A DNA stretch of 64,000 nt from Methanobrevibacter sp. Lineage in GTDB: Archaea; Methanobacteriota; Methanobacteria; Methanobacteriales; Methanobacteriaceae. Shown here piece by piece: positions 1,060 to 47,914 of this stretch (the first letter of the stretch is position 1; the number at the start of each line of letters is the position of its first letter). Below the pieces are notes generated by a model that was not told the DNA's origin, made no database searches, and was given only the letters and a program-made list of their open reading frames with translations. The stretch covers positions 70,126-134,125 of the forward strand of contig JAGCBE010000103.1 of assembly GCA_017652345.1 (NCBI GenBank), in the 5' to 3' direction. The translations under genes were made by a program, and so were the position numbers.

Positions 1060-1761
1060 ATGAAAGATAAAATGAAAGTAGGTTATTCCAAATCTTTCTT
1101 TGAAAGCTTAAGAGATGTTTTAAAGCGTGAGACTAAGCTACAACACAAAGTTACAAAAAGTGAAAAGGCTGGACACGCGTTTAGAGATTTGAAAAAACAT
1201 CCAGACTGGAAAAAAAGATGGAGAGAATTTTGTAAGTATGATATGGACTGGGATTGGCTTTTTATGGTAGAGCTTTTAGTTCATAAACTTACTTTAATGA
1301 AAGAATATTACAAAAACTTAAAACATATGGTTGATGACGAAAAAGAAAATATCGTACAAACTTTAGAACAATGTATAGAAATAGGTAATAGAGTAATTTC
1401 AGAAGATTATAATCAAGAGTCTCTTCAGTTTTTTAAAAAAGTAGCAAAGTACACTGTAGGACATAAAATCGTAGGAAAGAAAGATGGAAAAGAAATTGTG
1501 TTGTTTAAAACTCATGATGATATTGTAGATGGTGAGCAGGTTCCATTCTCCAGCTATCGAAAATGTGCTGAAGAAATTAAAAAGCATCCAGCAATGTATG
1601 GTAAATATGAAAATGTTGAAATTTATTACAGTTCAGATTGGTTAGAAGATGACAGATTAAAATACAGAGAGCTTATAGAAAAAGAAAATCAGAGAAAAGA
1701 ATCTGATATAAAAGAGTTTTTTAACAAGATTTCAGAAAACCTCCAAAACTGGTGGTTTTAA
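1060..1761 (+). CDS. Hypothetical phage protein, 233 aa
   Basis: Starts 16 bases after the PhoH-like gene behind a TGGAGG site, so the two are co-transcribed. The product is charged and mostly helical. A tryptophan/aspartate-rich segment (YDMDWDWLFMVELL, about residues 60-73) is followed by a long helical stretch and then a beta-rich part around residues 140-200. The WDW-plus-helix arrangement is familiar from uncharacterised phage proteins, but I cannot assign a function. A non-coding control region begins right after its stop. Confidence 0.7.
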   Translation: MKDKMKVGYSKSFFESLRDVLKRETKLQHKVTKSEKAGHAFRDLKKHPDWKKRWREFCKYDMDWDWLFMVELLVHKLTLMKEYYKNLKHMVDDEKENIVQTLEQCIEIGNRVISEDYNQESLQFFKKVAKYTVGHKIVGKKDGKEIVLFKTHDDIVDGEQVPFSSYRKCAEEIKKHPAMYGKYENVEIYYSSDWLEDDRLKYRELIEKENQRKESDIKEFFNKISENLQNWWF

Positions 1762-1789
1762 TTAATCACACATTATCACACAATCTTCC

Positions 1790-1876
1790 CATAATTTCCC
1801 ACAATTACTCTAAATAAAATCACCATTTTATTCGGCAGTTTTATGGTAAATTTTGGTATAATTATGGGAAATTATG
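1790..1876. promoter_or_regulatory. 12-bp perfect inverted repeat upstream of the clpP promoter
   Basis: CATAATTTCCCA at 1790-1801 is exactly the reverse complement of TGGGAAATTATG at 1865-1876. The match extends outward into an AATT with one mismatch. The arms are 63 bp apart and end 19 bp before the -35 box of the next promoter. The spacing suits two operator sites for a looping repressor better than an RNA hairpin. Confidence 0.5.
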
Positions 1877-1895
1877 TGAGTTAAAAAAATAAATC

Positions 1896-1923
1896 TTGAC
1901 ATTGATTTAAATTTTGATATAAT
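1896..1923 (+). promoter_or_regulatory. Sigma-A type promoter for the ClpP-like gene
   Basis: TTGACA at 1896-1901 and TATAAT at 1918-1923 with a 16-bp spacer, 70 bp before the ATG of the ClpP-like gene. Both hexamers match the host vegetative consensus perfectly. Confidence 0.85.
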
Positions 1924-1992
1924 AAAATCGAAGAAAACAAAAGTGTTCTTCGTAAAAATAAGAAAATAAAGAAAAAAGAGGATAAAAAAAAC

Positions 1993-2625
1993 ATGAATGA
2001 AATCAACAACATTGAAGAATTAACAGAATTACTAGGAATGGACTTAGACAAAGAGGTTACAGATACTGTATTACCTGATCCAGATTTACTTACTTTTTAT
2101 AATAATTTAAAAAACAGAGAAATTTGGCTTGATGATAGTATCGACGACCATAGTTTAGAAATCGGCAAACAAATTATGCGCTTTAATAAACAAGACGAAG
2201 GTATTCCTGTTGAAGATAGAAAGCCAATTAAAATTTATCTACATTGTTATGGAGGAGATGCCGCAGTGTGTTTCTCTCTTATGGACATAATTAATTTAAG
2301 TAAGACTCCTGTTTACACTTACAACATGGGAGTGGCTATGAGTGCCGCTTTCTTAATCTTAATCTCAGGACATAAGAGATTTACTCTTCCAACAGCCACA
2401 GCATTAATTCATTCAGGCTCTGGAGGAGCTCAAGGAACTTTTGAACAAACTCAAGCTCAAATGAAAGATTATAACCATACTGTTGAAAAAATGAGAGAGT
2501 ATGTTCTTCAAAAAACTAAAATTGATGTAAAGACTTTCAACAAACATAAAAATAGTGAATGGTACATGTATGTTGAGGATCAACTAAAGTATGGAGTGGT
2601 AGATGAAGTTATGTCTTCCTTATAA
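1993..2625 (+). CDS. clpP: ClpP-like serine protease
   Basis: Cytoplasmic Clp-family protease; phage versions may process head proteins or degrade host factors. In the 210-residue product the nucleophile is S117 in GVAMSAAF and the base is H140 in ATALIHSGSGG. A CYGGDA segment (85-90) corresponds to the substrate-binding glycine loop, and the family ending YGVVDEV is at 200-206. The third catalytic position, normally Asp in the RDxF region, seems to be Glu (E189). The gene has its own promoter and lies far from the head genes, so a non-capsid role is possible. Length is typical of ClpP. Confidence 0.88.
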   Translation: MNEINNIEELTELLGMDLDKEVTDTVLPDPDLLTFYNNLKNREIWLDDSIDDHSLEIGKQIMRFNKQDEGIPVEDRKPIKIYLHCYGGDAAVCFSLMDIINLSKTPVYTYNMGVAMSAAFLILISGHKRFTLPTATALIHSGSGGAQGTFEQTQAQMKDYNHTVEKMREYVLQKTKIDVKTFNKHKNSEWYMYVEDQLKYGVVDEVMSSL

Positions 2626-2644
2626 AGAAAGAAAGGTAACAAGA

Positions 2645-2947
2645 ATGGAAAAGAAAAAATATTTAAGACTAGCAATAGATCATGTTGATGAAGATACTTT
2701 TTTAGATGCATGGTTTGGTTATCTAGCACAGAACAAGATCTGGTATTCAGCATCAGATTCTAAAAAATATAGTTTATATAAGCTTGACTCTACTCATTTA
2801 TATAATATCAAAAACGGTATTATAGAGTTGTTTATGGAGAGCACTAGTCTTCCTCAGGGTGCAGCAGCGCTAGTAGCAATGATTGATTTCCTTTTGGCTA
2901 AAAGGGCGAAGCTTGAATATGAGGCATCGACAGACCTTCCATTCTAA
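2645..2947 (+). CDS. Hypothetical protein, 100 aa
   Basis: I place the start at ATG 2645, behind an AGGTAA site, rather than 42 bases upstream inside the ClpP-like gene. The product is acidic to neutral, with two predicted helices. It follows the ClpP-like gene with 19 bases between stop and start and is followed at once by a terminator, so it ends a two-gene transcription unit. It could be a partner or adaptor of the protease, but only proximity suggests this. Confidence 0.7.
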   Translation: MEKKKYLRLAIDHVDEDTFLDAWFGYLAQNKIWYSASDSKKYSLYKLDSTHLYNIKNGIIELFMESTSLPQGAAALVAMIDFLLAKRAKLEYEASTDLPF

Positions 2948-2956
2948 AAAAAATAT

Positions 2957-2983
2957 AAAAGACCAGAAAATGGTCTTTTTTTC
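2957..2983 (+). terminator. Intrinsic terminator after the ClpP-like unit
   Basis: An AAAAGACC/GGTCTTTT stem with a short A-rich loop is followed by a run of seven T on the plus strand. It abuts the next promoter directly. Confidence 0.8.
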
Positions 2984-3012
2984 TTGACATAGACATTTTT
3001 TTGTATTATAAT
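2984..3012 (+). promoter_or_regulatory. Sigma-A type promoter
   Basis: TTGACA 2984-2989, 17-bp spacer, TATAAT 3007-3012; perfect consensus. It starts the transcription unit beginning with the HELGH membrane protein at 3053. Confidence 0.9.
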
Positions 3013-3052
3013 AGGGTGAAAATAGAGAAAAAAGGAGGAAAAAACACAAAAA

Positions 3053-3520
3053 ATGAAAAATTTTACAGTAAAAATCGGTATTTGGTTTGCAAAAAACAGG
3101 TGGTTATACTACATTTTAAACTTTACATGGGGTATTGTAGCTAATATTATGGGTGCTTTTGTGGCTTTAGGTCTTTTAATCACAGGTCACAAACCAAAAA
3201 AATACTTTGGAACCGTTCAATTTATAGTTGGTAAGTGGTGGGGAGGATTCTCACTAGGTCTTTTTCAAGTAAGAGATCAGGACTCTTCTGAAGAAGTTTC
3301 CTACCATGAGCTTGGACATTCATACCAAAATGTATGGATGGGACCTTTCTGGCTCTTTGTGGTAGCAATTCCTTCCGTGATCAGATATAATTATCAAAAC
3401 CACAGAGAAAAGAAAGGACTTCCAAATGCAGATTACGATTCGATTTGGTATGAGGGGTCGTCTACGGAAATAGGAAAATATATTTACGAAACAAAAAGAG
3501 GTGAAAACGATGTACACTGA
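3053..3520 (+). CDS. Membrane-associated HELGH-motif protein (putative metallopeptidase-like)
   Basis: 155 residues. Hydrophobic segments at about 18-43 and 97-111 flank SYHELGHSYQ (83-92), an HExxH zinc-binding signature. Glutamates in WYEG or STEIG (about 134-139) could supply a third ligand. Such short proteins occur uncharacterised in phages and Firmicutes. The motif fits a membrane-embedded peptidase, though many small HExxH proteins are not proven enzymes. First gene of a unit with its own consensus promoter; its end overlaps the next gene by 11 bases. Confidence 0.75.
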   Translation: MKNFTVKIGIWFAKNRWLYYILNFTWGIVANIMGAFVALGLLITGHKPKKYFGTVQFIVGKWWGGFSLGLFQVRDQDSSEEVSYHELGHSYQNVWMGPFWLFVVAIPSVIRYNYQNHREKKGLPNADYDSIWYEGSSTEIGKYIYETKRGENDVH

Positions 3521-3908
3521 GGAACTTAAAAAAATTATAGATGAAGCTATCGTAGCTAAGAACTTATCTGAAAGCGAACAAAACAAGATCACTATCGATG
3601 AGTTATATCTTGTAAACAGTAATGAGACATACAAAGGATATTTCTACACAGGAGATGAAGGACGACATTATAACCATATACTGGTTATTGGTTATTCAGT
3701 AAAAACTAAAAAACATTATTTCCTTTCAGATGCATGGTCTGATGTATTAATACTTCAAATCTTTAATCATGATAAAATTAACATGGATATCCCTGCGGAG
3801 CTAAATTGTTTTCGACTTTTCGGTTTTCATAACCCATACACTATTAAGTTGATTCAAAGCACAATATGGTTATCTAATGAAGAAAGAGAAGAGAAAGAGG
3901 TGGAATAA
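3510..3908 (+). CDS. Hypothetical protein, 132 aa
   Basis: Start taken at ATG 3510, seven bases after GAGGTG, overlapping the end of the HELGH gene. Mixed alpha/beta with a central aromatic beta-rich region (YKGYFYTGDEGRHYNH) and an acidic C-terminus. No transmembrane segment or recognised domain. Its stop overlaps the next start by one base, indicating translational coupling. Confidence 0.7.
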   Translation: MYTEELKKIIDEAIVAKNLSESEQNKITIDELYLVNSNETYKGYFYTGDEGRHYNHILVIGYSVKTKKHYFLSDAWSDVLILQIFNHDKINMDIPAELNCFRLFGFHNPYTIKLIQSTIWLSNEEREEKEVE

Positions 3909-4090
3909 TGATTACAATCCCAATTTGGTTATTAACATTACTAATAATTTTAGCTGCTCCTGTTGCACTTTTTGCAATCGCAATATCTTTGTGTCTTATC
4001 ACAGCTCCATTGTTTGCTCTTAGAGCAGCAGCATTAGCAGATAGACACATGGAAGAAAAAAGGAGTGAAAAAGAAAATGAACAAAGATAA
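3908..4090 (+). CDS. Small single-pass membrane protein, 60 aa
   Basis: A hydrophobic segment covering roughly residues 4-42 (one long or two short helices) is followed by a charged tail rich in Lys/Glu. It starts on the last base of the preceding gene and overlaps the next gene by 14 bases, so expression is coupled. Function unknown. Confidence 0.65.
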   Translation: MITIPIWLLTLLIILAAPVALFAIAISLCLITAPLFALRAAALADRHMEEKRSEKENEQR

Positions 4091-4340
4091 AATAGAAGAT
4101 CAAGTTAATCATCCTGCTCATTATACGGACGGCAATATAGAAGTTATAGATTATATTGAAGACAAAGGGTTGATAGAAGGATTCTGTAAAGGAAATGTTA
4201 TAAAATATGTTTCTAGAGCAGGAAAGAAAGAGTCTGCTTCTCTAGAACTCCTAGATAAAGAAATTCAGGATCTAGAAAAAGCTCGTTGGTATTTAGATAG
4301 ACTAATCACATATTATAAAAAACAAAGAAAGGAAAATTAA
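4077..4340 (+). CDS. DUF3310 family protein
   Basis: The 87-residue product carries the DUF3310 pattern: VNHPAHYT near the N-terminus, then IEVIDYIE, GNVIKYVSRAGKK, and a C-terminal helix with LEKARWYLDRL. The family is frequent in phages and sometimes described as a nucleotide-kinase-like domain; its activity is unproven. The start at ATG 4077 sits 11 bases after AGGAG (4061-4065); an in-frame GTG at 4065 overlaps that site and is unlikely to be used. Confidence 0.85.
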   Translation: MNKDKIEDQVNHPAHYTDGNIEVIDYIEDKGLIEGFCKGNVIKYVSRAGKKESASLELLDKEIQDLEKARWYLDRLITYYKKQRKEN

Positions 4341-11995: not shown

Positions 11996-12856
11996 CTAGT
12001 GTGCGTATACAAACCTGTGTATCCCAGTCTTTGTGTAACAACCCTGACATTCTGTGCAGTGCCATGTTTTTCCTGTTTTAGGATTGATAGGATGTTTATT
12101 ATCCTTTGTCGCGCCCACGGCAGGGCATCTTATGCATGCAGCTCTAGCTTTTTTCTCTTCGTCTGACATTTTTGATGTCTTAAGATTTGAACTATCAAAC
12201 TCAAATACGTTGAATACAGCATTCATCTTTCTGAGTTCTGCTATTGTATCCTTCATGCAGCCATTCCATTCAGATATATTGATGCATAAATTTGGAGCTG
12301 ATTGTTTATGCTTTCTAAAGAATGCCAATAAAACTGGTGAATTCTTAGAATATATACCGAACCTCATCTCTGGATGAGATAGCGCTAGCTGATTCCAGTG
12401 CTCTAGCTCTTCTAGTGACTGCAGTTCTCCACTGGTGTCGATTCTGAAGAACTTGTAGCTTAGATCTGCAGGATTCTTAGTTTGATAGAATCTCTTATTG
12501 ATATTTCTGATCTGCATATCAATCTGTTTGAAACACTCTTCAAGCTTGAAGCGAATCATCAATGTATTTTCTGCCCATGATTGTGTGATGGAATTATGAT
12601 GCTGCACGATTGAGCGGCGAGCATAGCAGCTTTTGAAGCAACCTGTACAGTTGTGTGAACATGTACCTTCGACATCTGTGATTCTACGTCCCTTTGCCTC
12701 TAGCGGCGTAGAGCTGTTACCAGGCAGCGTACTCCAGTTAATCATCTTTCCAATTTTTTCATTTCCTAAGCTTAGGTGGATTCTAGCAGATTCTGCTGAG
12801 AATGTGTAGATCGGGTTTTGATCTACTTTTAGTGTTGTTTTTTCGAATTCTTTCAT
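11996..12856 (-). CDS. GP88-like cysteine-rich phage protein, 286 aa
   Basis: Resembles the phage GP88 family: KIGKMINWSTLPG (about 35-46), then CSHNCTGCFKSCYAR with four Cys (C66, C70, C73, C77), a core with RIDTSGELQS and MRFGIYSKNS, and a C-terminal cysteine cluster CIRC...CTECQGCY. The Cys sets suggest a metal or Fe-S cluster, recalling radical-SAM-like folds; the activity is unknown. A divergent relative lies at 23836-24585. It has its own consensus promoter. Confidence 0.75.
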   Translation of the reverse strand: MKEFEKTTLKVDQNPIYTFSAESARIHLSLGNEKIGKMINWSTLPGNSSTPLEAKGRRITDVEGTCSHNCTGCFKSCYARRSIVQHHNSITQSWAENTLMIRFKLEECFKQIDMQIRNINKRFYQTKNPADLSYKFFRIDTSGELQSLEELEHWNQLALSHPEMRFGIYSKNSPVLLAFFRKHKQSAPNLCINISEWNGCMKDTIAELRKMNAVFNVFEFDSSNLKTSKMSDEEKKARAACIRCPAVGATKDNKHPINPKTGKTWHCTECQGCYTKTGIHRFVYAH

Positions 12857-12963: not shown

Positions 12964-13028
12964 ATAAAAAGTTTTTTAACTTATCTGGTGTTGTTTCAGG
13001 GACCTTCACGGGCCCCGATTGTAACACC
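12964..13028 (-). terminator. Structured terminator of the long leftward operon
   Basis: On the minus strand GGUGUU/AACACC (13028-13023 with 12992-12987) encloses a second stem GGGGCC/GGUCCC (13016-13011 with 13004-12999). One pair is G-U only in minus-strand RNA. An AAGTT/AACTT hairpin with a T-run follows. It closes the operon whose last gene is at 13056. Confidence 0.65.
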
Positions 13029-13055
13029 ATTTTTTATAAAATGCATGCTATCACC

Positions 13056-16222: not shown

Positions 16223-16696
16223 TTATTCATCCTCCTCATTATAATCCAAGCATTCTATCTCTTGTTCTGCTTGTTCTGTAAATTCTTCCACGGAATTGTA
16301 TCGGTTGACATACGCCATGTCTGCTTCACCACAGTATCCTACTACGATGACTGTTCCTTTTTCTTCTTTACGGATATCGACAGCTGAAGACATCACGGCG
16401 TATACATAATTAAGGATGTCTGTGTTTAGATAGAAATCCTCTTCCTTGTTTTTAACAACCTCCTCAGGCTTTTGATAATCTCGTTCAACAACGAAATTAC
16501 CATGCGTCATACCTTTACAATAAATGCCATTCATGAATGCCCACGGGATTATATGCTCATTCACATATTTTTCTACAGATGGCTCTTCTGCGTCTGTGAA
16601 AACCATATCACCAACGAACACTGCCACTTTATTGGCAGGTAGTCCTGGTGCTTGGATGCTATTGATAGCTCTCACGTATTTTTCAAATATGTTCAT
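16223..16696 (-). CDS. Paralogous phage protein, 157 aa (NIFEKYVRAI family)
   Basis: Shares a domain with the larger protein at 21128: NIFEKYVRAINS, KVAVFVGDMVFTD, YVNEHIIPWAFMNGI, then a cytosine-free central part and a final E-rich helix. The two are clear paralogs with unknown function. No catalytic motif visible. AAAGGAGGTGG upstream. Confidence 0.75.
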   Translation of the reverse strand: MNIFEKYVRAINSIQAPGLPANKVAVFVGDMVFTDAEEPSVEKYVNEHIIPWAFMNGIYCKGMTHGNFVVERDYQKPEEVVKNKEEDFYLNTDILNYVYAVMSSAVDIRKEEKGTVIVVGYCGEADMAYVNRYNSVEEFTEQAEQEIECLDYNEEDE

Positions 16697-17225: not shown

Positions 17226-17450
17226 TTATAATTCTAGTTCGTCATCGATACTTATCCATTCATATTCGACGCCGTTTTTCTCAAAATATTCTTCAATCAA
17301 TTCTGAATCTGATTCAAAGTTTCTGCCGTCTTCTTCACGGCATTTTTCAACATATTCTTTTGCCTTGAACCAATCTTCTTTACTTTTGAGTTGGATGACC
17401 CCAAAGATGATATTGTCATCCCCACACTCCCTAACTAAATAATTATTCAT
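17226..17450 (-). CDS. Hypothetical acidic protein, 74 aa
   Basis: Two strands followed by a helix KSKEDWFKAKEYVEKCREEDG and another acidic helix. Its architecture resembles the 74-aa protein at 13524, without clear sequence identity. Confidence 0.6.
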   Translation of the reverse strand: MNNYLVRECGDDNIIFGVIQLKSKEDWFKAKEYVEKCREEDGRNFESDSELIEEYFEKNGVEYEWISIDDELEL

Positions 17451-17452
17451 GT

Positions 17453-17737
17453 TTAATCATCTCCTTCCATGCTAATAATTCTTTCTGCAACCATCTTACT
17501 CGCATTAAACGAACATCCTTCAAGTCTTCCCTTCACAACAACCTTCTGACCACATTTAAAGTGTTCTGTCAAGACACTTTTTAACGGTTCTGTGATTGTT
17601 ATTCCCAAGATGTCATCTGCATACTCTCCATCCATGTTTTTAAATGGTCTTCTGCATTTCACGAGCAACGTATCAAACGGTGCCTCTAAATCTGTTACAA
17701 TTTTGCCAATAATCATAAAATAATTATACATATCCAT
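17453..17737 (-). CDS. ssb: SSB-like OB-fold protein, 94 aa
   Basis: Short single-stranded-DNA-binding-like domain: NYFMIIGKIVTDL at the start, CRRPFKNMDGEYADDILGITI (strands 2-3), FKCGQKVVVKGRLEG (the turn-strand typical of SSB), and KMVAERIISME at the end. It lacks the acidic C-terminal tip that recruits host partners. Probably coats single-stranded DNA or acts in a complex, consistent with the nearby methyltransferase. Confidence is moderate because the family is short and divergent. Confidence 0.6.
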   Translation of the reverse strand: MDMYNYFMIIGKIVTDLEAPFDTLLVKCRRPFKNMDGEYADDILGITITEPLKSVLTEHFKCGQKVVVKGRLEGCSFNASKMVAERIISMEGDD

Positions 17738-18118
17738 CTACCTCCTCATATACTTGTATAAAGCTCTAATATCGCTTTTTAAGATTTCACTATCAAGCTT
17801 GTTTACGAAAGCCGTAGTTTTAAAAGATGTATCAAATTCTTCTTCTACCAACTCCACTATACTATCATAACAACAGTCTTTTGTTGCTACTAAGACTTCA
17901 TATTTCATTGATGTACTTCCAGTAATAAACTCAACTAAATCTTTCAACAAATGTGATGAATCTGCCGAGTTAAAGTCATATTCTCCACCATCTATGTTTA
18001 TTCCATCTGTGTTATACAAATCATATCCCAACACACTATCACATCCTTCTCCTAAGACTTCTGAGTTACTTAAATAACAGTGTACCATTGTTCCATCTTC
18101 TAATTTTATTAATACCAT
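17738..18118 (-). CDS. Hypothetical protein, 126 aa
   Basis: Start at ATG 18118 after AAGGAGGCAAAT. Beta-rich first half (VLIKLEDGTMVHCYLSN), helical end. Directly abuts the SSB-like gene. No domain recognised. Confidence 0.65.
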   Translation of the reverse strand: MVLIKLEDGTMVHCYLSNSEVLGEGCDSVLGYDLYNTDGINIDGGEYDFNSADSSHLLKDLVEFITGSTSMKYEVLVATKDCCYDSIVELVEEEFDTSFKTTAFVNKLDSEILKSDIRALYKYMRR

Positions 18119-18147
18119 ATTTGCCTCCTTATTAAAAAGGCTAGCCA

Positions 18148-18627
18148 TTACCAGCTAGCCCTATATACTGCTTGATAGTTTTTGTTCTTTTTCAAAAACT
18201 CTATGATTGGTTCCAACATCTCCACCGTGTTTTCAAGGTCACGCATGTAATACTCATTATATTCTGTAGAACCGAAAAAGAAACCACTACTTGTTTCCAA
18301 GATGTCTCTTGCTTTTTCTGGATGTTCAATAACATCTCTGCATCTTTTTACTAAATCTTCTAAAGTATCCACTGAAACCCACACTGGATTACAATCGTCC
18401 ACTCCTTCTGCGCATTTGTCGACAAAATATTTATGAATCATATTTGCCTTACGCCAATACGCTACTTGATATGAAATTTCTTTTGACATAAAGTTATTTT
18501 CAAATATCTTTTCACCAAGTTCTTTAAGTTCTTCTGGATAGAAGTGTGCCTTTTTCTCTTTTACATCTCTATCCCATTCACAGCAACTTTCATATTTCTT
18601 TACATATAAATAAGAATCAAGACCCAT
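18148..18627 (-). CDS. MGLDxYL-family phage protein, 159 aa
   Basis: Start at ATG 18627 behind AAAGGAGGAGAAC. The product begins MGLDSYLYVKKY and contains YQVAYWRKANMIHKYFVDKCAEG (about 55-77), a pattern recurrent in uncharacterised phage and bacterial proteins that keep YWRKAN.IH.WF. Function unknown. The gene at 31716 (MGYRHYVGYI) may be a distant relative. Confidence 0.75.
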   Translation of the reverse strand: MGLDSYLYVKKYESCCEWDRDVKEKKAHFYPEELKELGEKIFENNFMSKEISYQVAYWRKANMIHKYFVDKCAEGVDDCNPVWVSVDTLEDLVKRCRDVIEHPEKARDILETSSGFFFGSTEYNEYYMRDLENTVEMLEPIIEFLKKNKNYQAVYRASW

Positions 18628-18628
18628 A

Positions 18629-18844
18629 CTAGTTCTCCTCCTTTCCTGCAAATTTTACAATCAGTATCTTCTGTTCTTTCTGGATGGCAAAGTCATAGAT
18701 TTCTCTATCCCCTTCTGTTTCCAGAAATTCATCTGCAAATTCAGGGATGACATCTCTCCATTCACCTGCTCTTCCCACACTTCCAATCATCTCAACTGCA
18801 TATCCTACATTAACGGTTTTGTCATACAATTCTTTAAGCTTCAT
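18629..18844 (-). CDS. Hypothetical protein, 71 aa
   Basis: Start at ATG 18844 behind AAGGAGGAAAAG; the longer frame extends into the upstream gene and is unlikely. Alpha/beta; ends with a stretch KILIVKFAGKEEN. Function unknown. Confidence 0.6.
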   Translation of the reverse strand: MKLKELYDKTVNVGYAVEMIGSVGRAGEWRDVIPEFADEFLETEGDREIYDFAIQKEQKILIVKFAGKEEN

Positions 18845-18845
18845 A

Positions 18846-19256
18846 TTACTTTTCCTCCTTATATCCATAAATTTGTAATCTATAATTAGCTCTATTAACA
18901 GCATCTTCTGCTCTCTTGCTAACACGAATACAGTCCATGAGTTCTTCAATAACCCCTTCGTATTCCTTCTTGATTCTCTTTAATTCTTCATTCTCCCTCT
19001 TTAATTCTTCTATGACTCTCCATGCCTTGTCGCTTTCAACAGCAAATTTATTTTCACTAACCAACTGTAAGTTATATTTTGTTCTTACATAGTCGCATAA
19101 ATCTATCCATACCTTACTCTTTAACGAGCAATCATATCTGCCTCGCATCATTTTACTACACACAGTATTTGCCAATCCCATCTCCTTCGCAAATTGTTGC
19201 TTAGTTAAATTTGGATGGAATCTATCCTTTAATTCTTTCAAAGTAATCATTTTCAT
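18846..19256 (-). CDS. Helix-turn-helix / coiled-coil protein, 136 aa
   Basis: Start at ATG 19256, eight bases from AGAGGTGG. Residues 15-40 form a Cro/XRE-like helix-turn-helix (LTKQQFAKEMGLANTVCSKMMRG). Residues 78-110 form a coiled coil. Likely a DNA-binding regulator dimerising through the coil; target unknown, though it may control its own operon. Confidence 0.7.
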   Translation of the reverse strand: MKMITLKELKDRFHPNLTKQQFAKEMGLANTVCSKMMRGRYDCSLKSKVWIDLCDYVRTKYNLQLVSENKFAVESDKAWRVIEELKRENEELKRIKKEYEGVIEELMDCIRVSKRAEDAVNRANYRLQIYGYKEEK

Positions 19257-19261
19257 ATGCA

Positions 19262-19453
19262 TTACCACCTCTCTTTATAATATTTTAACATACACTTTCT
19301 TTTCTTGCAAGAACCAGCTGTTACATTTACGACATTATATCCGTGAGCCAAAAGGAGCTCAGAAATTTCTCTTTCCTGAGCCCCCTGATTACACACGAGT
19401 TGTCCTTTGATTTTGCTATATCCAGCTGTTGCTCGATTCACGAAATCCTTCAT
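19262..19453 (-). CDS. Hypothetical basic protein, 63 aa
   Basis: Start at ATG 19453 behind TAGGAGG. Basic, cysteine-containing, with ISELLLAHGYNVVNV then CKKRKC. Could bind nucleic acid. Overlap with the upstream gene's frame is avoided with this start. Confidence 0.55.
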   Translation of the reverse strand: MKDFVNRATAGYSKIKGQLVCNQGAQEREISELLLAHGYNVVNVTAGSCKKRKCMLKYYKERW

Positions 19454-19463
19454 ACAACGCCTC

Positions 19464-19670
19464 CTACTTCCACCTCTTGACTTCATATTCTGTTAATGGC
19501 TTACAATCCACAACAGTTTCGCCAGTTCGCTTGCCATCTTCGGCAAACCACATACACATCTCAAACTGGTTGGGTGTTAGAGCCACCGTCTTGATCTGTG
19601 GAAAATCCATGATCTCGGCTCTAACTTCACCCGCATCGTTTTGATATTTTACACCAAATTTCACCTTCAT
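19464..19670 (-). CDS. Hypothetical protein, 68 aa
   Basis: Beta-rich small protein (KVKFGVKYQNDAGEVRAEI). Start taken at ATG 19670 near AAAGGGGGTG; a GTG six bases later is also possible. Function unknown. Confidence 0.55.
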   Translation of the reverse strand: MKVKFGVKYQNDAGEVRAEIMDFPQIKTVALTPNQFEMCMWFAEDGKRTGETVVDCKPLTEYEVKRWK

Positions 19671-35922: not shown

Positions 35923-36235
35923 ATATTTATCCTCCAATTTTGACCGCTTTTTTACAGAAATTTCACCGCGGTTTTTGTCAAATTTCCAACTTTTGAAAAA
36001 TACATTTTCATTTTTTTGCGCGCTTTTTACTTATTGAAACGCGCATTTGCTAACTTGTAAAATTACCTGTGCTGACAAATGGTTTACTGCTCTTGTTAAA
36101 GAATTACTGTTCTCTGAAGAATTCATCTCTTCCATTTGAAATAACTCTTCTTTTTTATGGTTCACCATCACCATATTGTTTCATCGGCACTACTCATCAT
36201 TAATCACCTTCTTTCTTGGGGTCGTAGCACCCATT
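35923..36235 (-). other. Short intergenic region, few features
   Basis: The region upstream of the 35485 gene holds a possible 45-aa gene (36031-36168), GC-rich GCGCG/CGCGC inverted repeats near 36020-36045, and a terminator at its upper end. Otherwise no signal. Confidence 0.5.
36031..36168 (-). CDS. Possible small protein, 45 aa
   Basis: Open frame starting ATG 36168 (MVNHKKEELFQMEEM...), with plausible amino acid composition but only a weak ribosome site. Alternative short frames exist in the same stretch, so this is a tentative call. Confidence 0.35.
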   Translation of the reverse strand: MVNHKKEELFQMEEMNSSENSNSLTRAVNHLSAQVILQVSKCAFQ

Positions 36236-36266
36236 CAAAAGGACGAGGCCGAAACCTCATCCTCTT
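36236..36266 (-). terminator. Intrinsic terminator (AGGATGAGG hairpin)
   Basis: Minus strand AGGATGAGG/CCTCGTCCT with a UUUCGG-type loop, including a G-U pair only formed in minus-strand RNA, followed by TTTTGAATG. A near-identical hairpin recurs at 37826-37856. Confidence 0.65.
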
Positions 36267-36320
36267 TATATCGATGTTACAACTTATATTACAAAAAAAG
36301 GAATGTGTTCACGTTCCTTT

Positions 36321-37807: not shown

Positions 37808-37822
37808 GAGTATTTAATACTC
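37808..37822. repeat. Palindrome GAGTATTTAATACTC (copy 1 of 3)
   Basis: Perfect 15-nt palindrome directly after the hairpin at 37826, upstream of the 37519 gene. Copies at 39029-39043 and a 16-nt variant at 39733-39748 stand in the same place relative to hairpins. Confidence 0.65.
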
Positions 37823-37825
37823 ATT

Positions 37826-37856
37826 CAAAAGGACGAGATTTTACTCTCATCCTCTT
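37826..37856 (-). terminator. Intrinsic terminator, twin of the hairpin at 36236
   Basis: Minus strand AGGATGAG/CTCGTCCT hairpin with a G-U pair unique to minus-strand RNA and TTTT tail. Shares ATATAAAGAGGATGAG and CTCGTCCTTTTGAATG flanks with the 36236 copy. Confidence 0.65.
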
Positions 37857-37873
37857 TATATGAATATTAAATT

Positions 37874-38131
37874 TTACAACAATATGCAATTTAATTCACA
37901 TACTGTTTTGACAATAGTGTCTGCAAGATTTTCGTCACTAACATTGTATTGACGCTTAATCCTGTCATCACAATTATTGATATCAACAGTGTTACCATCT
38001 AGGGCAACTATCAGATAATCGTGTTTGCCAAAGATTCCAAACACATAATATTCTTCTTCTTTGACGATTTCACTAACATCAAGACGACCTTTAATAATCG
38101 CGTTTACTTCATTATGTAATTTAGTAAACAT
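37874..38131 (-). CDS. Hypothetical protein, 85 aa
   Basis: Mixed alpha/beta, beginning MFTKLHNEVNAIIKGRLDV and ending TIVKTVCELNCILL. AAAGGAGGAACG upstream. Terminated by the hairpin at 37826. Function unknown. Confidence 0.6.
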   Translation of the reverse strand: MFTKLHNEVNAIIKGRLDVSEIVKEEEYYVFGIFGKHDYLIVALDGNTVDINNCDDRIKRQYNVSDENLADTIVKTVCELNCILL

Positions 38132-38967: not shown

Positions 38968-39028
38968 GATTTTCCTTTCTCCTCTAACGGGCTAAGCTTC
39001 CATGATAAAAGCTCGGGAACCCGAATCT

Positions 39029-39717: not shown

Positions 39718-39731
39718 AGGCGTTTTTACCT
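39718..39731. repeat. AGGCGTTTTTACCT element (copy 1)
   Basis: Exact 14-mer repeated at 39842-39855, with a variant AGGCGCTTTCACCT at 40092-40105. On the minus strand it reads AGGTAAAAACGCCT. It stands 30-45 bases upstream of the 39340 and 39857 gene starts or directly after them. Confidence 0.7.
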
Positions 39732-39841: not shown

Positions 39842-39855
39842 AGGCGTTTTTACCT
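39842..39855. repeat. AGGCGTTTTTACCT element (copy 2)
   Basis: Identical to copy 1 at 39718-39731; lies directly after the stop of the 66-aa gene at 39857. Confidence 0.7.
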
Positions 39856-40091: not shown

Positions 40092-40105
40092 AGGCGCTTT
40101 CACCT
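40092..40105. repeat. AGGCGCTTTCACCT element (variant copy 3)
   Basis: Variant of the 14-mer at 39718 and 39842, between the structured RNA and the 39857 gene. Confidence 0.6.
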
Positions 40106-40121
40106 GAATTAATTTTTTCGT

Positions 40122-40196
40122 GCTGATATGCCACTTTTATCTTGGCAAGTGGCCAGCCTAACAAGGAGTATCATATCAGCTTAAATATCTCCTTGT
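40122..40196 (-). ncRNA. Pseudoknot module at the 3' side of the structured RNA
   Basis: GCTGATATG (40122-40130) pairs with CATATCAGC (40172-40180) and encloses GCCACTT/AAGTGGC (40130-40136 with 40147-40153). ACAAGGAG (40161-40168), within the outer loop, pairs with CTCCTTGT (40189-40196) outside it. The crossing order makes a pseudoknot; all helices are perfect. Confidence 0.65.
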
Positions 40197-41106
40197 AACA
40201 TCTTGATTTATAATCACAAGGAACGAATCTTTCGACTCATTCCCTGTCACGTTATATATCAAAATGATATAATAACATCGTGTTATTAAATAAGGGGTAT
40301 ATTTCAACCCCTTTGATTGTTTATATTAAATTGTAATGCAGGTTTTTGGATTGCCTGCGTCCATGCGTGCACCACTCACTGTGATTACTCACAGCTACAG
40401 AACCACGCAGCTTCTCCCTAGTCACCATTATACAGTAGAAGCTCTTTAGAGCTATATAATGATTGAGAACACCTCAAGGCTATGTGCTCTCTTTTTTATG
40501 CCTATCCCTCATGGTTTCTACATCCACGATGTACTCTGATCTGGGATCGGATTTCAAACGAGTTCTCTTCTCACTCATCTTGAGTAAGGCGTTCTTGCTT
40601 TTAGGCCGCCTTTAGCCCAATATATCCAGCTCTCTGTCTCCACTTTCATCTGTGCTATACTAGCCACAGAATCCCGCAAATTAAAGGAGATTCTTCCATC
40701 TATGTTCAATGTCACCATTTGCTAAACGCCATGATGGACCACGGTGATATATACCGTTGATCTAAGTATTCTCGAGTGTTATTCGACCACTCACTTGGCT
40801 CTTAAATATGCCAGAGGACACTTTTGCTTATTTTCTAAGCTCAGGTAGTGTCTACCCTTTATGTGTGTTACGTCCACTTGGAACGACTGGGTTTCTTTTC
40901 TTGGTCAACACGCCGTACGAGACAGTCTAATCATAGGTCGTTAGTCCTATTTTCGAGGCGATTTCTGCCTCTGGCTTCATCCAGTTACCATCACAATCCT
41001 TCTTGCTCTTTCGAGCCCTCATCTTTTCAATGAGTGGTTATAGCTATCATATAGATGCTACAACTCTACGCACTAGAGATATCCATCGCTGGAGGTTTTC
41101 CTTTAC

Positions 41107-41157
41107 ACACAGAAAACTTCTCTGTGTATAAATATATATAGAAAACTTCTCTATATA
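41107..41157 (-). ncRNA. Twin hairpins with identical loops and different stems
   Basis: On the minus strand ACACAGA-GAAGUUU-TCTGTGT (41127-41107) and TATATAGA-GAAGUUU-TCTATATA (41157-41135). The loop and the closing AGA/UCU are the same; the outer stems differ but remain fully paired, a covariation between duplicated modules. Confidence 0.7.
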
Positions 41158-41640
41158 TACTAGCACTTTAACGGTGGGTTGTCACCGACCAATTCATTAT
41201 CCTTACGGACACCTCTTACGAATGCCCCTATAATACATCCTTAAGAGTGAATTGATTGCATTGCAACCTTGCGAACAAGGTCTGGTAGATACCATCTACT
41301 AGCACGGGATTCACTGACTTACATTTTCTTAGCCCTTTGTAGTTTTTTGATCTTTCATAGGAAGACCTGGAGACCAACGCATATGTTACCATATACGCAC
41401 AACTCCCGATGAGATTTCATCCTACTAGTCAAAAATTTGCATCACAGATCCAAATTTTCAATTAGCATCTAGCTAGGTTTCTACTGGGTAGAACCTTATG
41501 CAGAATTTTCTCATTCGTTTTCTGATAACAGAAAAACCAGAGAAAATTGATGATTTCTCATCGCCATGAGCACCAACTTTCGTCATCGGGCTTGCACCGA
41601 TCTTACGATTATTCATCGTAAGGGCCTTGCGGCTTGCTCC

Positions 41641-41968
41641 GTATATACTCGTGTACTTACGCCCCCAGCGGGAAAACCCGTTAAAAACCGTAATATACAC
41701 TTTTAGATATAAATACCTATCTGTATATACTCTCCGTGGTCGTCGACACCACCGAACTTATTTCTGCCTCTATCTCTCTATACCCATATCTCTCTATCTC
41801 CCCCTCTATCTCTCTCCCTCTCCCTATCTCAAAATCCAAATATCTACTTTTCCAGGTAAAAAGGTATGGGGGTGTTTTATACGTCCCTATACATGTCGAT
41901 CAAGGTCTACAAATATATACAAATCTTGTCGACTATATATTAATATTATTACGCGTGCACGTATAAAG
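41641..41968. other. Non-coding region with polypyrimidine/polypurine tract
   Basis: At 41761-41830 the plus strand is almost wholly pyrimidine (CTCTATCTC-type repeats). CGGG/CCCG hairpin near 41667-41682. ACGCGTGCACGTATAAA occurs at 41951-41967 and again at 48825-48841. No convincing gene; possible location of promoter and 5' end of the structured RNA. Confidence 0.5.
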
Positions 41969-41998
41969 CAAAAAAGCCCTGTATCTTTCACCAGGGCT
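41969..41998 (-). terminator. Intrinsic terminator of the glycosyltransferase-like gene
   Basis: Minus strand GCCCTG/CAGGGC hairpin followed by TTTTTT, just after the gene at 42021. It isolates that operon from the structured RNA. Confidence 0.8.
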
Positions 41999-42020: not shown

Positions 42021-42803
42021 TTATTTAAATATATCTCTCACGTCATATATATCTTCGCCCGACGCCGCAACTGTATCTTCCAAGTTCACTTTCTCTTCTG
42101 TTATCGTTGGCTTTGTATATGGCTTTTTATTTATCGCTTCCTCTATCATATCGAAATGCTCTTTAAATTTCTTTTGAAGATTGTAAAGATGTAGTGTGGC
42201 ATTATCTATTGTGATATGAAGATCATCAAGGTAATCTTTGAAGTAGATTGTGCGTCGATTGTTTCGAGTCATTTTCTGGACGAGTGTGTCTATGTCAAGG
42301 TGTTGAACGAGACATGGACGGTACTTTACATATGGGATTGAAAGAGCCATGAGGGCATTTTTCTCAAGAGTATCATATGGAAAGCGGGGTGTGCGGGCGT
42401 GTATCTCTCTCATTTTCTTTGCAATCTTTGCCGCAAGGCCCGCTGGGTAATAGGTGCATTGATTGTAACAGAAATCTGTAAATGAAAGGTGTGTTGTGAA
42501 ATAAAGGGATGGGGAATTAAAGAAATTAATGAGATAAGATCCCCAACCGTTATTGGCACATGAGGTGATTGCTTGAGAGACCTCGTGGGCGAAATTGCGA
42601 CATAAAACGACGTCGTCCTCAAGCAAGATGGAATCGTGGGGCGATATGTATTCAAGTTGATCTAGGAAGCTCTCGACGGGTTTATGTTCGTGATCGACAA
42701 GAAGCTCAAAAGGAATACCTTTTTGTGTGAGCTCGCGGTCGATTGAAGGGTCGAGGGTTCTTTGTAATGTTGTTCATATGTAAATTTTAAAAGGAAGGGA
42801 CAT
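42021..42803 (-). pseudogene. Glycosyltransferase-like gene interrupted by an in-frame UGA
   Basis: The frame contains SILLEDDVVLCRNFAHEV, the LEDDV metal-binding motif of GT25-like/GT-A glycosyltransferases, plus a strand-rich N-terminal part TLQRTLDPSIDREL and a helical C-terminus. Reading back, the frame reaches ATG 42803 (MSLPFKIYI) behind AGAGGT, but a TGA at 42776-42774 stands at codon 10, before TTLQRTLDP. UGA stops other genes here, so this is a nonsense mutation, a sequencing error, or recoding. Initiation at an internal TTG (42626) would lose part of the fold. Terminator follows. Confidence 0.6.
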
Positions 42804-44163: not shown

Positions 44164-44922
44164 CTAGGAAATTTTTTGAGGTGAAATGGCGCCTGTGATA
44201 ATATTTGTAATTGTTGATGGCGCGAAATCACCGTAGTTTAAGAAAGGATTGATATGTGATCCAGGTTGTGGTTGTCCAAAGAGCCAATCTATTTTAAAAC
44301 ATGGAATTGGGGAATTTGAACCAACAACCTGCATGTCAAACCCGTATTCTTGGTGAAGATATTGCGTAAGTTGTTCTAAATCTTTTGGAGCCATGTTTTG
44401 GAGACCTGCAAGATAGAGAATAACTTTTTTATCATATCGAATCCAACCAGAGTGATGAAAATTACGACGATACACAGCCATAAGAGCCAAGAGAAATCTT
44501 TTTAGCTCTACGGATGCGTGAGGGTCGTTAGAGGTTAGGGTTTCAAAGCGTTGAACATCTAATGTTGATAAGTAAAGTTGTTGAGAAGCAGGAGAATCTT
44601 GCCCTTGTTGAAGTATGCGTGGTTTTCGTGGAGAATTAAAATTATCAATAAACTTTGACGAAAAAGAGGGTGAAGAAAATTGCGTATGAATTATTTTTGC
44701 AATACGCATTGAAATTTCTTCGGGAAACCCGTAAGCCACAGACATCTTTTGAGATAGGGCGGCTATAATAGAAGCTGTGGGTTGTTCAGCTGCTAAAAGA
44801 TCTAAATATAAATAATATAGGTCTTTGAATTCTTTTGATTTTAAATCAATGAACTCAGAAGGAAGAGAGGAAGCGAGTGTTGTAATGGTCACCTTTTCCT
44901 CTGTGTTAATATTATTAGGCAT
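44164..44922 (-). CDS. Hypothetical protein, 252 aa, overlapping the RNA polymerase gene
   Basis: Mostly helical with a central segment LQQGQDSPASQQLYLSTLDVQRFE and a C-terminal polar part. Its start lies 8 bases inside the end of the polymerase gene, so expression is coupled. A polymerase-associated factor is a reasonable hypothesis only from position. No domain recognised. Confidence 0.65.
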   Translation of the reverse strand: MPNNINTEEKVTITTLASSLPSEFIDLKSKEFKDLYYLYLDLLAAEQPTASIIAALSQKMSVAYGFPEEISMRIAKIIHTQFSSPSFSSKFIDNFNSPRKPRILQQGQDSPASQQLYLSTLDVQRFETLTSNDPHASVELKRFLLALMAVYRRNFHHSGWIRYDKKVILYLAGLQNMAPKDLEQLTQYLHQEYGFDMQVVGSNSPIPCFKIDWLFGQPQPGSHINPFLNYGDFAPSTITNIITGAISPQKIS

Positions 44923-47914
44923 TTTCCGTTTCCTCCTTTTCTGGGTCTTGATTTAATTGCTTATCAACTTCTGCTATAATAGATTGTTCAACTATTTGAG
45001 AATCTTTAACCTTATTTAAAATTTTAGTAAACAACTGGGAATCTGGTTCCATGTGGAATGGGTCAGTGTCTACAGATAGGTCTTCGATATCATCTATTCC
45101 TGTTTCTGTTATTTGTTTTGTAATATCCTTTAATGAATAAGTGCGACCTAAATATTCATAAGGTCCATGAGGATCAAGAACAGGATAAAAACATTTTTCT
45201 GACTGAGGAATGTACTGGATAATTTGGTCGCCCAATACTTCCCAAACAAAACCCCAATTAAAAGAAGAATAAAGCTTCGATAATTTATATGAATAATATA
45301 AAAACTCTTCTCCTGAAATTGAGGATTCAATAAGAGTGGTTTGAAGTGAGTTGATTAGGATATCATATAAAGAAGAACGAAGTTCTTTATAGTCGTCGGT
45401 CATCTCGTCAACTTCAGAAGAATCCACTAGAATTGAAGTCAAGTGTTTAATTTGTTTTTTGGTATTATAATCTTGATACATTTTTCGCACCGTAATGAAT
45501 TTTTCTTGCGATTCCGCGTTTTTAAAGATATCCTCGTAAGTTGGAAGCATTGAAACTTTTGGAATTTTTTGGTCATTTACATCTTTAGCGAATTTTATAT
45601 CGAAATCAATAGATTCAAATTCACGACATAAATTATTCATGGTACAAGCTGAAGTAATTAAAGGACAATACTTCTGATACTTGCGGACAAGATTTTTTTC
45701 TTCTTCTGTTTTGTTTTCTTTTTTAAGAAGCTTCTTTAATTTAATACCAAACATATCTTTCGATATTTGATTGTATGAGTTTTCAAATTGTTTGAATTTT
45801 TGATTTAACTCGGGATACAAATAACGGAAGAAATAAGGTTTCTTAGATACAACGAGAGCGTTTGCTTTAATTTTTCGCGTGCGTTCTTCTGGTGTATCAT
45901 CTTCGGCGAATTTTTCAAACTTTTTCCACTCGCTTGGAAGGGAAGGTTTGTCTGCTCCTTTAATACGGTCTATTTCCTGACCAACAATTTCACGAAGAAG
46001 CTTAATACGTGTCATTATTTCTTGATACTGATCTTGCATCTCTGGTTTGTTGAATATTGCAGACATAGCATACATTATGGTTGCTGTGTTTGAGAAACCA
46101 CCAACCCCTGTACCAAATCCTTTCATAACAGTTGCAGTTATGTTTGGAACCGTCATCTTCGCAGGACTTGCTAAACCTTTTTCATACGTAATTATATTAT
46201 GGTCCTTATGAGAACCTTTGATGAAATATTCATTATCTGTTGTAAGTACAATATCACCGTCATAATCAGAATCTTCCGCTCTGAAGCATGAAGTATCATA
46301 GGTATTATAAATAATACCAGATTTTATATATTGATACCAATAATTTGCATCTTTATTATCAACTATAACAGTCATTGGATTGTGTTCATGCTGATCAATC
46401 ATCGGACTTCTACAACAATCTACAGTACAATTGTGAGATTTTCTGTTTTTCCAAAAATCTGAATATATTTCATCTCGTTTTAATACGCCAACAGGTTCAA
46501 GTCCTAATGCTGACTGGCATTGTGCAACAGGGTCTGCTATCATAAATTGATAGTTACCTCGTATCCAAATTTTACCGATTTTTGCATGATTAATAGATTC
46601 GGCTATGTTTTTATATACCTTATATTGAACATAAGAATCTTTTAAAAAATCAGGGTTTTTAATAAGAGCTTTCATAGCAGAAGTTTGAGCTGTACCAAAA
46701 ACATTGTTATACTCGATATCATCTCTTTTTGTTCCAAAAGAATATAAAAGAGTATGTAATAAATCACCTTTACAAATCTGATTAATCCAATTAACCGTAG
46801 GGTTGATTAAATTTCTTATGTCGTCTTGGGAAAGAGTTAATGCTTGAATATATTGATAGTTAGCTAAGACGCATTCGTCATCTTCTCGTTTATTGTATCT
46901 TGCTACTCCCCAATGTATTTTACCTCTTTCAACATAAGAAAGATAGTCATTCCAACTACTGTAATATTTGTGGGTCTTAAATTGTGATTCAGAAAGTAAA
47001 ACATCTATTTCATCTATATTATACTCTTTTCCCCACTTATCTTTAATTGTACTAATACCATGAACTTTTGCATATTCTTTAAAATCAAAAGTAACAAGGT
47101 TGCCTTTAATAAAGCAAGAACGAGCAACAAAAGAACTTGGAACATAAGATAAACTCATGTCTTGAGCCCATAGCTCTGCGAATTTAGGGTCAATTAATCC
47201 TTGTCCATCTGCGCAATTAAGCTCTAAGTCCATAGTTCTTTTTTCTATATGAGATTTACCTTCTGCGTTAGGGCAGATAAAATCTACTGGTTCTTGTTCG
47301 AGCGTGTGAAAGAAATCTTTGATTACACAAACTCGCGGTGTTCTAACCCATAAAATTGAAGAAAAAGCAAGAGCGAAGTAAGCACTATACTTAGCTAAAA
47401 CAAATTGATTCGTTTTTTCATCTAGACCACAGTTAACTGTTTTGACGATTTGTTGTTGATATTTTTCGTTTATAAAGGTGGCAGTGTTTCTTCTTATTTG
47501 TCCGCTTCCACTACATAAGTACACATAGTGAACTCCGTTCAAATAGAAGCCTTTGGTACGAAATTTATTAAAATCTGTCTTCTTTTGGTCTAATATAATG
47601 TTTACTATGTCTTTAACAAATAAAATATTGGTAATATACCTGTTTAAGATGTGAGCTTCCTTATATTTTCCTTGTTTTTTATAAGCGCGTTCATTAGAAC
47701 GTAATTTTTGCACATAATTAAATAATGTTGTGTGCTGTCTAAAATCATTATGAATGTATCTAAGTTGTTGAAAAATTATATTATCTCCTATTGAAACCAC
47801 GTTTCCATCTTTTAATCCTTGTTGAATTGTGTAGTTTTCAATTTTGCAATCATTTTTTACTAAAAATGAAGCGGGAATTTTAAACACTTGATACAAATTT
47901 TGTACTACTGGCAT
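44915..47914 (-). CDS. Two-barrel RNA polymerase with DxDGD motif, 999 aa
   Basis: Single-chain polymerase of the YonO/QDE-1-like class. The signature DSDYDGD (548-554) matches the DxDGD metal-binding loop of the second double-psi barrel. CADGQGLI (234-241) with VPSSFVARSCFIKGN (258-272) resembles the conserved block of eukaryotic-type RdRP-like enzymes, and CRSPMID (501-507) corresponds to the RxP segment before the active site. KIGKIWIRGNYQFMIADP is also consistent. Such phage enzymes are DNA-dependent in SPbeta (YonO) and crAss-like phages. No separate sigma domain visible. It probably transcribes phage genes. A promoter with a palindromic operator lies upstream, and the next gene is coupled by an 8-base overlap. 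Confidence 0.85.
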   Translation of the reverse strand: MPVVQNLYQVFKIPASFLVKNDCKIENYTIQQGLKDGNVVSIGDNIIFQQLRYIHNDFRQHTTLFNYVQKLRSNERAYKKQGKYKEAHILNRYITNILFVKDIVNIILDQKKTDFNKFRTKGFYLNGVHYVYLCSGSGQIRRNTATFINEKYQQQIVKTVNCGLDEKTNQFVLAKYSAYFALAFSSILWVRTPRVCVIKDFFHTLEQEPVDFICPNAEGKSHIEKRTMDLELNCADGQGLIDPKFAELWAQDMSLSYVPSSFVARSCFIKGNLVTFDFKEYAKVHGISTIKDKWGKEYNIDEIDVLLSESQFKTHKYYSSWNDYLSYVERGKIHWGVARYNKREDDECVLANYQYIQALTLSQDDIRNLINPTVNWINQICKGDLLHTLLYSFGTKRDDIEYNNVFGTAQTSAMKALIKNPDFLKDSYVQYKVYKNIAESINHAKIGKIWIRGNYQFMIADPVAQCQSALGLEPVGVLKRDEIYSDFWKNRKSHNCTVDCCRSPMIDQHEHNPMTVIVDNKDANYWYQYIKSGIIYNTYDTSCFRAEDSDYDGDIVLTTDNEYFIKGSHKDHNIITYEKGLASPAKMTVPNITATVMKGFGTGVGGFSNTATIMYAMSAIFNKPEMQDQYQEIMTRIKLLREIVGQEIDRIKGADKPSLPSEWKKFEKFAEDDTPEERTRKIKANALVVSKKPYFFRYLYPELNQKFKQFENSYNQISKDMFGIKLKKLLKKENKTEEEKNLVRKYQKYCPLITSACTMNNLCREFESIDFDIKFAKDVNDQKIPKVSMLPTYEDIFKNAESQEKFITVRKMYQDYNTKKQIKHLTSILVDSSEVDEMTDDYKELRSSLYDILINSLQTTLIESSISGEEFLYYSYKLSKLYSSFNWGFVWEVLGDQIIQYIPQSEKCFYPVLDPHGPYEYLGRTYSLKDITKQITETGIDDIEDLSVDTDPFHMEPDSQLFTKILNKVKDSQIVEQSIIAEVDKQLNQDPEKEETENA

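Follow-up and report, generated by a model that had tools for sequence, protein, structure and literature searches.

The locus

The window, the 64-kb stretch of DNA analysed here, contains about 1.5 kb (40110-41640) in which no plausible gene is found, as the preliminary description had stated. The longest open reading frames (ORFs), sense and antisense, are no longer than those in dinucleotide shuffles. Over 41690-40110 on the minus strand, the longest sense ORF has 54 codons against a shuffle average of 60 (P 0.61), and the longest antisense ORF has 61 (P 0.79). Four small ORFs of the region lack a Pfam match at E≤0.01. Recoding of 40110-41640, with TAG read as Q or TGA as W, was rejected because it opens no convincing frame; under TAG=Q, a plus-strand frame of 166 codons with five read-through stops can be read. 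The GC content of the region is 0.40, compared with 0.33 elsewhere, and only 1 of 82 tiles is equally high. The start of the unit probably lies near 41690 rather than at 41640.

The setting of the RNA, read leftward from the polymerase gene, consists of the following features:

44915-47914, minus strand: gene for a YonO-like RNA polymerase (PF05183, E 1.4e-9), used as synteny anchor
42021-42626: upstream gene
41975-41998, minus strand: terminator-like hairpin GCCCUG..CAGGGC-UUUUUU, 3' of the upstream gene, read directly from the sequence
41760-41891, minus strand: CCTTTTTACCTGGAAAAGTAGATATTTGGAT box and polypurine tract in the upstream DNA, with matches in relatives
41680-41712, minus strand: promoter-like element (AAAAGTGTATATTACGGTTTTT) with core TGTAWATT, aligned in ten loci
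41557-41637, minus strand: twister-sister self-cleaving ribozyme (RF02681, 45.5 bits), of the four-way form by alignment
40110-41567, minus strand: body (about 1.46 kb) of a candidate giant structured RNA, identified by ORFs at chance level, GNRA enrichment, a rise in GC and helices of high pairing probability

The hairpin at 41975-41998 has a 10-nt loop, which is outside the limits of the terminator scan, and hence is absent from the scan list. Its place 3' of the upstream gene makes it probable that the RNA is transcribed as a separate unit. The 3' end of the RNA body (40110) is approximate, and the next ORF begins about 50 nt beyond it. On the minus strand, the nearest listed terminator-like site 3' of the RNA is at 39025, past three ORFs, and the RNA may therefore remain part of the mRNA. 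A repeat resembling AGGCGTTTTTACCT (on the minus strand, AGGTAAAAACGCCT) occurs between the genes downstream of the RNA, at 39718-39731, 39842-39855 and 40092-40105.

The polymerase gene also bears out the Firmicutes phage setting that had been assumed for the region. Among the tblastn matches listed (20 of 35 phage records), identity is 24-33%, and named phages from Bacillus (SPbeta-type), Enterocloster, Thomasclavelia and Psychrobacillus are represented. In SPbeta, the protein YonO is reported to be a single-chain RNA polymerase (PMC5467207), and the matches in SPbeta are presumably YonO itself.

The promoter-like element

The element was aligned in ten loci, which are referred to below by record (G) and locus (L): the window, G006 (L069), G002 (L070), G004 (L071), G008 (L072), G009 (L049), G007 (L073), G003 (L043), G010 (L050) and G005 (L045). 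Scored with a leave-one-out profile made from the other nine, the element of the window ranks first among all 128,000 positions of its two strands. It is likewise the best site of the whole record in six of the seven records ranked (the window, G002, G004, G006, G008 and G009), while in G007 22 positions outscore it; these rankings are favoured by the selection of the ten loci, for which a pattern with the same core was used. The idea that the element is nearly single-copy was rejected, as a loose pattern matches other places in each contig. We infer that the element may act as a promoter.

The DNA just upstream (41760-41891) is shared with some relatives: identity reaches 84% across 83 nt shared with L042 (G002) and 77% across 61 nt shared with L044, and G006 has a 31-nt match. 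The polypurine tract contains 52 purines in 60 nt. A pattern scan of IMG/VR for the upstream box returned two contigs that were already known and a chance match within a coding gene (L082).

A ribozyme motif at the start of the candidate RNA

Between the element and the body of the RNA there is a twister-sister ribozyme, which the preliminary description missed. When the whole window was compared by cmscan with 4227 Rfam families at gathering score, this was the single match. It exceeds the gathering score of 34 (E 6.4e-7) and covers model positions 1-81 of 81. The alignment contains the conserved internal-loop and SL4 segments as well as the C-A step; its two non-standard columns form the outer P1 pair, A-G. 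Crystal-structure work on twister-sister describes cleavage at the C-A step (PMC5660989), and the cut is predicted to fall here between C41568 and A41567. Because of the position of the ribozyme, cleavage would set free about 1.46 kb of RNA. A cmscan of the locus at E≤1 again gave the ribozyme; its other match, to STnc450 on the plus strand (20.2 bits with a cut-off of 37), was rejected as chance.

The ribozyme is like the Rfam family in matching it over its full length, and occupies the 5' part of the RNA. Matches to the same family occur in 2 of 23 records of relatives (G008 and G019), but at other places; that of G008 lies between genes, whereas the ribozyme described here heads a long non-coding RNA. 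Among the seven RNAs compared below (that of the window and six from relatives), only one contains an Rfam ribozyme at gathering score.

Other self-cleaving ribozymes are found between genes of the cluster in relatives. Pistol and Twister-P5 occur at 12978-13041 and 13698-13748 in L073 and at 17393-17442 and 18563-18628 in L050, and a twister-sister at 13380-13455 in L072. Their position between genes points to mRNA processing in these three clusters.

Predicted structure of the RNA

All four GNRA tetraloop hairpins named in the preliminary description are present on the minus strand, and the G-U pairs attributed to the hairpins at 40221-40242 and 41378-41398 number three and two, respectively. 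Together with the other elements recognized, they are as follows:

41549-41562, minus strand: GAUGA(GAAA)UCAUC hairpin just 3' of the predicted new 5' end (hairpin scan)
41377-41398, minus strand: GUAA hairpin with a 9-bp stem including 2 G-U pairs, loop 41389-41386 (hairpin scan and pairing probability)
41103-41160, minus strand: two 13-bp hairpins in tandem, their loops nearly identical (repeat of 81% identity, and helices)
41012-41009 (loop), minus strand: GAAA hairpin with stem GCUC/GAGC (pairing-probability helices)
40388-40385 (loop), minus strand: GUAA hairpin of 7 bp including 1 G-U pair (hairpin scan)
40216-40247, minus strand: GAAA hairpin of 14 bp including 3 G-U pairs, loop 40233-40230 (hairpin scan and pairing probability)
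40122-40196, minus strand: candidate 3'-terminal pseudoknot of 8+9 bp, with ACAAGGAG/CUCCUUGU interleaved with GCUGAUAUG/CAUAUCAGC

GNRA hairpins are much more frequent than expected. With stems of at least 4 bp there are 9 on the minus strand, compared with a shuffle mean of 1.56, and none of 500 shuffles reaches 9; with stems of at least 6 bp there are 3, compared with 0.24 expected (P 0.002). The same hairpin scan finds none on the plus strand of the region. When tiles on both strands of the window are ranked by GNRA hairpins, tile 40281-41870 on the minus strand is the first of 236.

Comparison by eye of the two tandem hairpin copies shows three changes that preserve pairing, two of them double (C-G/U-A) and the third U-G/U-A. 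An interleaved pair of helices of at least 8 bp each, as in the candidate pseudoknot at 40196-40122, was found in 0 of 100 shuffles, although interleaved pairs of at least 7 bp are also present in 6 of 9 coding controls. An HDV-like reading of this pseudoknot was rejected by eye, since, judged against the anatomy of HDV, a linker is missing between its two 3' helices.

The many stem-loops of the preliminary description are by themselves weak evidence. Folding z-scores for two 700-nt halves of the minus strand are -7.3 and -3.6, and the plus strand is equally strong (-7.5 and -3.3). Of 14 coding controls from this phage, 5 have z-scores of -4.2 to -7.4. Because some coding genes score as strongly, folding energy is no proof of a structured RNA.

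Relation to known large RNAs

The preliminary description proposed that the RNA could be GOLLD, ROOL or a new class and suggested an Infernal search with the models of these and of HEARO. The search was run by cmscan, and none of the three matched at the region. The assignment to GOLLD or ROOL is not supported, given the lack of a match both in the window at gathering score and at the locus at E≤1, with a method that finds a full ROOL in a relative. Within the same limits and the same 4227 families, the covariance model of OLE RNA had no match either. It is possible that the RNA represents a new class.

ROOL (RF03087) is likewise large and phage-borne, and it is present in 3 of 19 records of polymerase relatives (G006, G003 and G020). 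Its model has 574 positions, however, and the RNA described here is more than twice that length. tRNA genes are often near ROOL (PMC12286853), although they do not strictly define it; the 64-kb window contains 0 tRNA genes.

A comparison can be made in G006, the nearest long relative. There, ROOL (273.7 bits, 118417-119040, minus strand) and the RNA of the element locus (10.3-11.7 kb) are about 46 kb apart on a circular contig, or 107 kb on a non-circular one. Since they are at different places, they are two different RNAs. The polymerase gene of G006 is split across the contig ends, its parts having 81% and 69% identity.

The surroundings of ROOL in G006 contain a second non-coding stretch. 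The full ROOL is at L113 18417-19040, minus strand, and a stretch of about 2.6 kb (L114, about 1470-4120, minus strand) lies 2-5 kb away, beside tRNA genes. It has a skipping-rope RNA match and an internal 41-nt duplication of 83% identity, and is possibly another giant RNA.

GOLLD (RF02032) is also a giant phage RNA, many members of which are reported to exceed 800 nt (PMC12286853), but its model has no match in the window. It was found in 0 of 19 related records, by a search that had no positive-control match. HEARO (RF02033), another large RNA, differs in that its model has no match here and the four ORFs tried have no Pfam match. A HEARO RNA (111.3 bits) was found at L050 13345-13559, just downstream of the polymerase match of that relative.

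The locus in related phages

The closest relatives of the polymerase in protein collections are at least 72% identical to it. An alignment of 25 polymerase sequences led to 26 IMG/VR loci. Those outside the ten that were aligned are from the same contigs or duplicates, end early, or are distant and have no convincing element. L044, L051 and L064 are identical over 22.8 kb, so there is no variation to read among them. Searching the genome contigs collection with the polymerase gave two distant loci. The downstream coiled-coil protein as query found G006 only, and the neighbouring 201-aa protein found no locus.

In five of the nine relatives, a non-coding stretch follows the element directly. 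It is 1.46 kb long in L069 and 0.72-0.77 kb in L071, L072, L049 and L073. In L070 the element is followed by a gene of about 0.44 kb and then by a non-coding stretch of 2.1 kb. In L043 and L050 the element is present and genes follow after a short leader, and the sequence of L045 ends about 200 nt past the element.

The properties of these RNAs vary. In L069, L070 and L071, GC is higher than in any tile outside the RNA, and in L072 only 2 of 45 tiles reach it. L049 and L073 show no such rise: 10 of 59 and 11 of 46 tiles, respectively, are equally high. L070 has 7 GNRA hairpins with stems of at least 6 bp, compared with 0.24 expected. With stems of at least 4 bp, GNRA enrichment is absent from the other five (P 0.17 in L069, 0.43 in L071, 0.60 in L072, 0.42 in L049 and 0.58 in L073). 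ORF lengths are at chance (P>0.3) in four of the six. The longest sense ORFs of L070 (111 codons, P 0.03) and L071 (108 codons, P 0.09) are longer than most in shuffles, so that a short ORF inside these two is possible.

Hairpins shaped like a tRNA T-arm, with acceptor-like strands, occur in the 3' part of the RNAs of L069 (11379 and 11711) and L071 (7466). ARAGORN reports no tRNA at these hairpins, and the RNA of the window has none like them.

Outside the element, BLAST gives no convincing similarity among the seven RNAs. An alignment of sequence plus pairing for the 21 pairs of RNAs, with 15 shuffles per pair, also gave nothing convincing: z is 3.3 for L070-L071, 2.3 for L072-L073 and -1.2 to 1.7 for the six pairs that include the window. 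In this method, randomly mutated copies of the window RNA are detected at 20% (far above background) and at 30% change, but not at 40%. A DNA search of the phage and plasmid collections gave no match to the region at E≤1e-5. In comparisons of the region with the IMG/VR loci, convincing matches are limited to the upstream element and the ribozyme, and the match of L007 is confined to the ribozyme. The seven RNAs may belong to a single family that evolves very fast, or may be several RNAs of separate origin that occupy one slot.

Interpretation

We consider it reasonably probable that the phage makes a free-standing giant structured non-coding RNA, transcribed leftward from the promoter-like element and processed by the ribozyme. 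Transcription would start at about 41.7 kb, at a dedicated element that heads a gene cluster. Co-transcriptional cleavage at C41568/A41567 would then remove a leader of about 120 nt. The ribozyme would stay on the discarded leader, and the product would begin just before the GAAA-capped hairpin. This product, about 1.46 kb long, would carry a 5'-OH at a defined position, and its body may fold through tetraloop contacts and the 3' pseudoknot. It could work by itself or together with protein, as a structured RNA that stands free, in the way suggested for ROOL and GOLLD. Those two RNAs are reported to assemble into RNA-only cages and are described as having no known function (PMC12286853). The RNA of the window is a credible new giant structured RNA with a built-in ribozyme, whose function we can only infer.

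Alternatively, the region may be a very long regulated 5' leader, in which the structure and the ribozyme control mRNA stability, translation or read-through and no free-standing RNA is made. This is rather unlikely. Several observations speak for it: the RNA and the next three ORFs are not separated by any listed minus-strand terminator-like site, an ORF begins about 50 nt after the RNA, genes follow directly in relatives, and ribozymes (Pistol and Twister-P5 in L073 and L050, twister-sister in L072) lie between cluster genes. Against it, the element is retained whether the leader is almost absent (L043, L050) or as long as 2.1 kb, and 1.5-2.1 kb far exceeds the leaders commonly known. A replication origin, with the DNA opened by the element and the polypurine tract and the RNA serving as origin (primer) transcript, is an improbable explanation. 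In the window, the cumulative skew minimum is at about 41.9-42.2 kb, though the genes on either side run the same way. The minimum of the whole contig is less than 1 kb from the element in G002 (120.0 and 120.4 kb) and G004 (78.0 and 78.7 kb), and the minimum within 9 kb of the element is at most 0.7 kb upstream of it in 6 of 10 loci (the window, L042, L044, L049, L050 and L045, the last of which ends soon after the element). That the element is the best site of the record in 6 of 7 would also suit an origin. Yet in G006, G007, G008 and G009 the minimum is about 5-16 kb away, even if the contigs are circular. As only three of seven records (the window, G002 and G004) agree, an origin role is possible but weak, and an origin transcript has no need of a GNRA-rich fold of 1.5 kb.

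The remaining explanations carry very little weight. That the region is eroded or spurious, the remains of genes with structure arising by chance, would explain why no sequence is common to the RNAs of different phages and why some coding genes fold as strongly; an intact ribozyme motif, a strand-specific excess of GNRA hairpins, the rise in GC and the conserved position make it very improbable. A far-diverged ROOL or GOLLD that escapes the covariance models is scarcely plausible. Its size class and phage setting fit, and ROOL occurs in 3 of 19 related records, but the locus has no match at E≤1, the window has no tRNA genes, and the ROOL of G006 lies elsewhere.

The relatives suggest a broader picture, which we put forward tentatively. 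Phages with a YonO-like polymerase might keep a slot for a giant RNA behind a conserved element, in which the sequence is replaced entirely from phage to phage while the position, the strand and the non-coding nature stay. The RNA of the window would have a self-made 5' end. Such RNAs would form a kind of giant RNA defined by its locus and distinct from the ROOL present in some of these phages. Such a locus would suggest that the giant RNAs of phages outnumber their Rfam families and evolve too fast for the usual homology searches. A further giant RNA with a fused ribozyme would also be a defined and testable molecule, since its 5' end is predictable to a single nucleotide. Among papers on structured phage RNAs and phage ribozymes, from a library with few subscription journals and no bioRxiv preprints, titles and the beginnings of abstracts mention no such RNA.

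Other structured sequences

In the window, the next most GNRA-rich tiles are at 17491-19610 on the minus strand, with 7 hairpins, 3 of them with stems of at least 6 bp. This stretch contains short ORFs with GTG or TTG starts, and one sub-threshold Pfam match was obtained among the four tried. A 58-nt repeat is found at 36229-36286 and 37819-37876, where local folding is strong, its copies being 76% identical.

Among the relatives, L072 (about 12044-12090) and L073 (about 12262-12310) share an intergenic motif, CCGTTTGAGACACCATGCGG..TATAAA.GTTGGAAGT, just 5' of a gene. It has no Rfam match at gathering score, and is possibly a small ribozyme. A similar motif, GGAGATAA.(G/A)TCAAGAA, precedes two genes in L050, at about 16552-16590 and 18712-18750.
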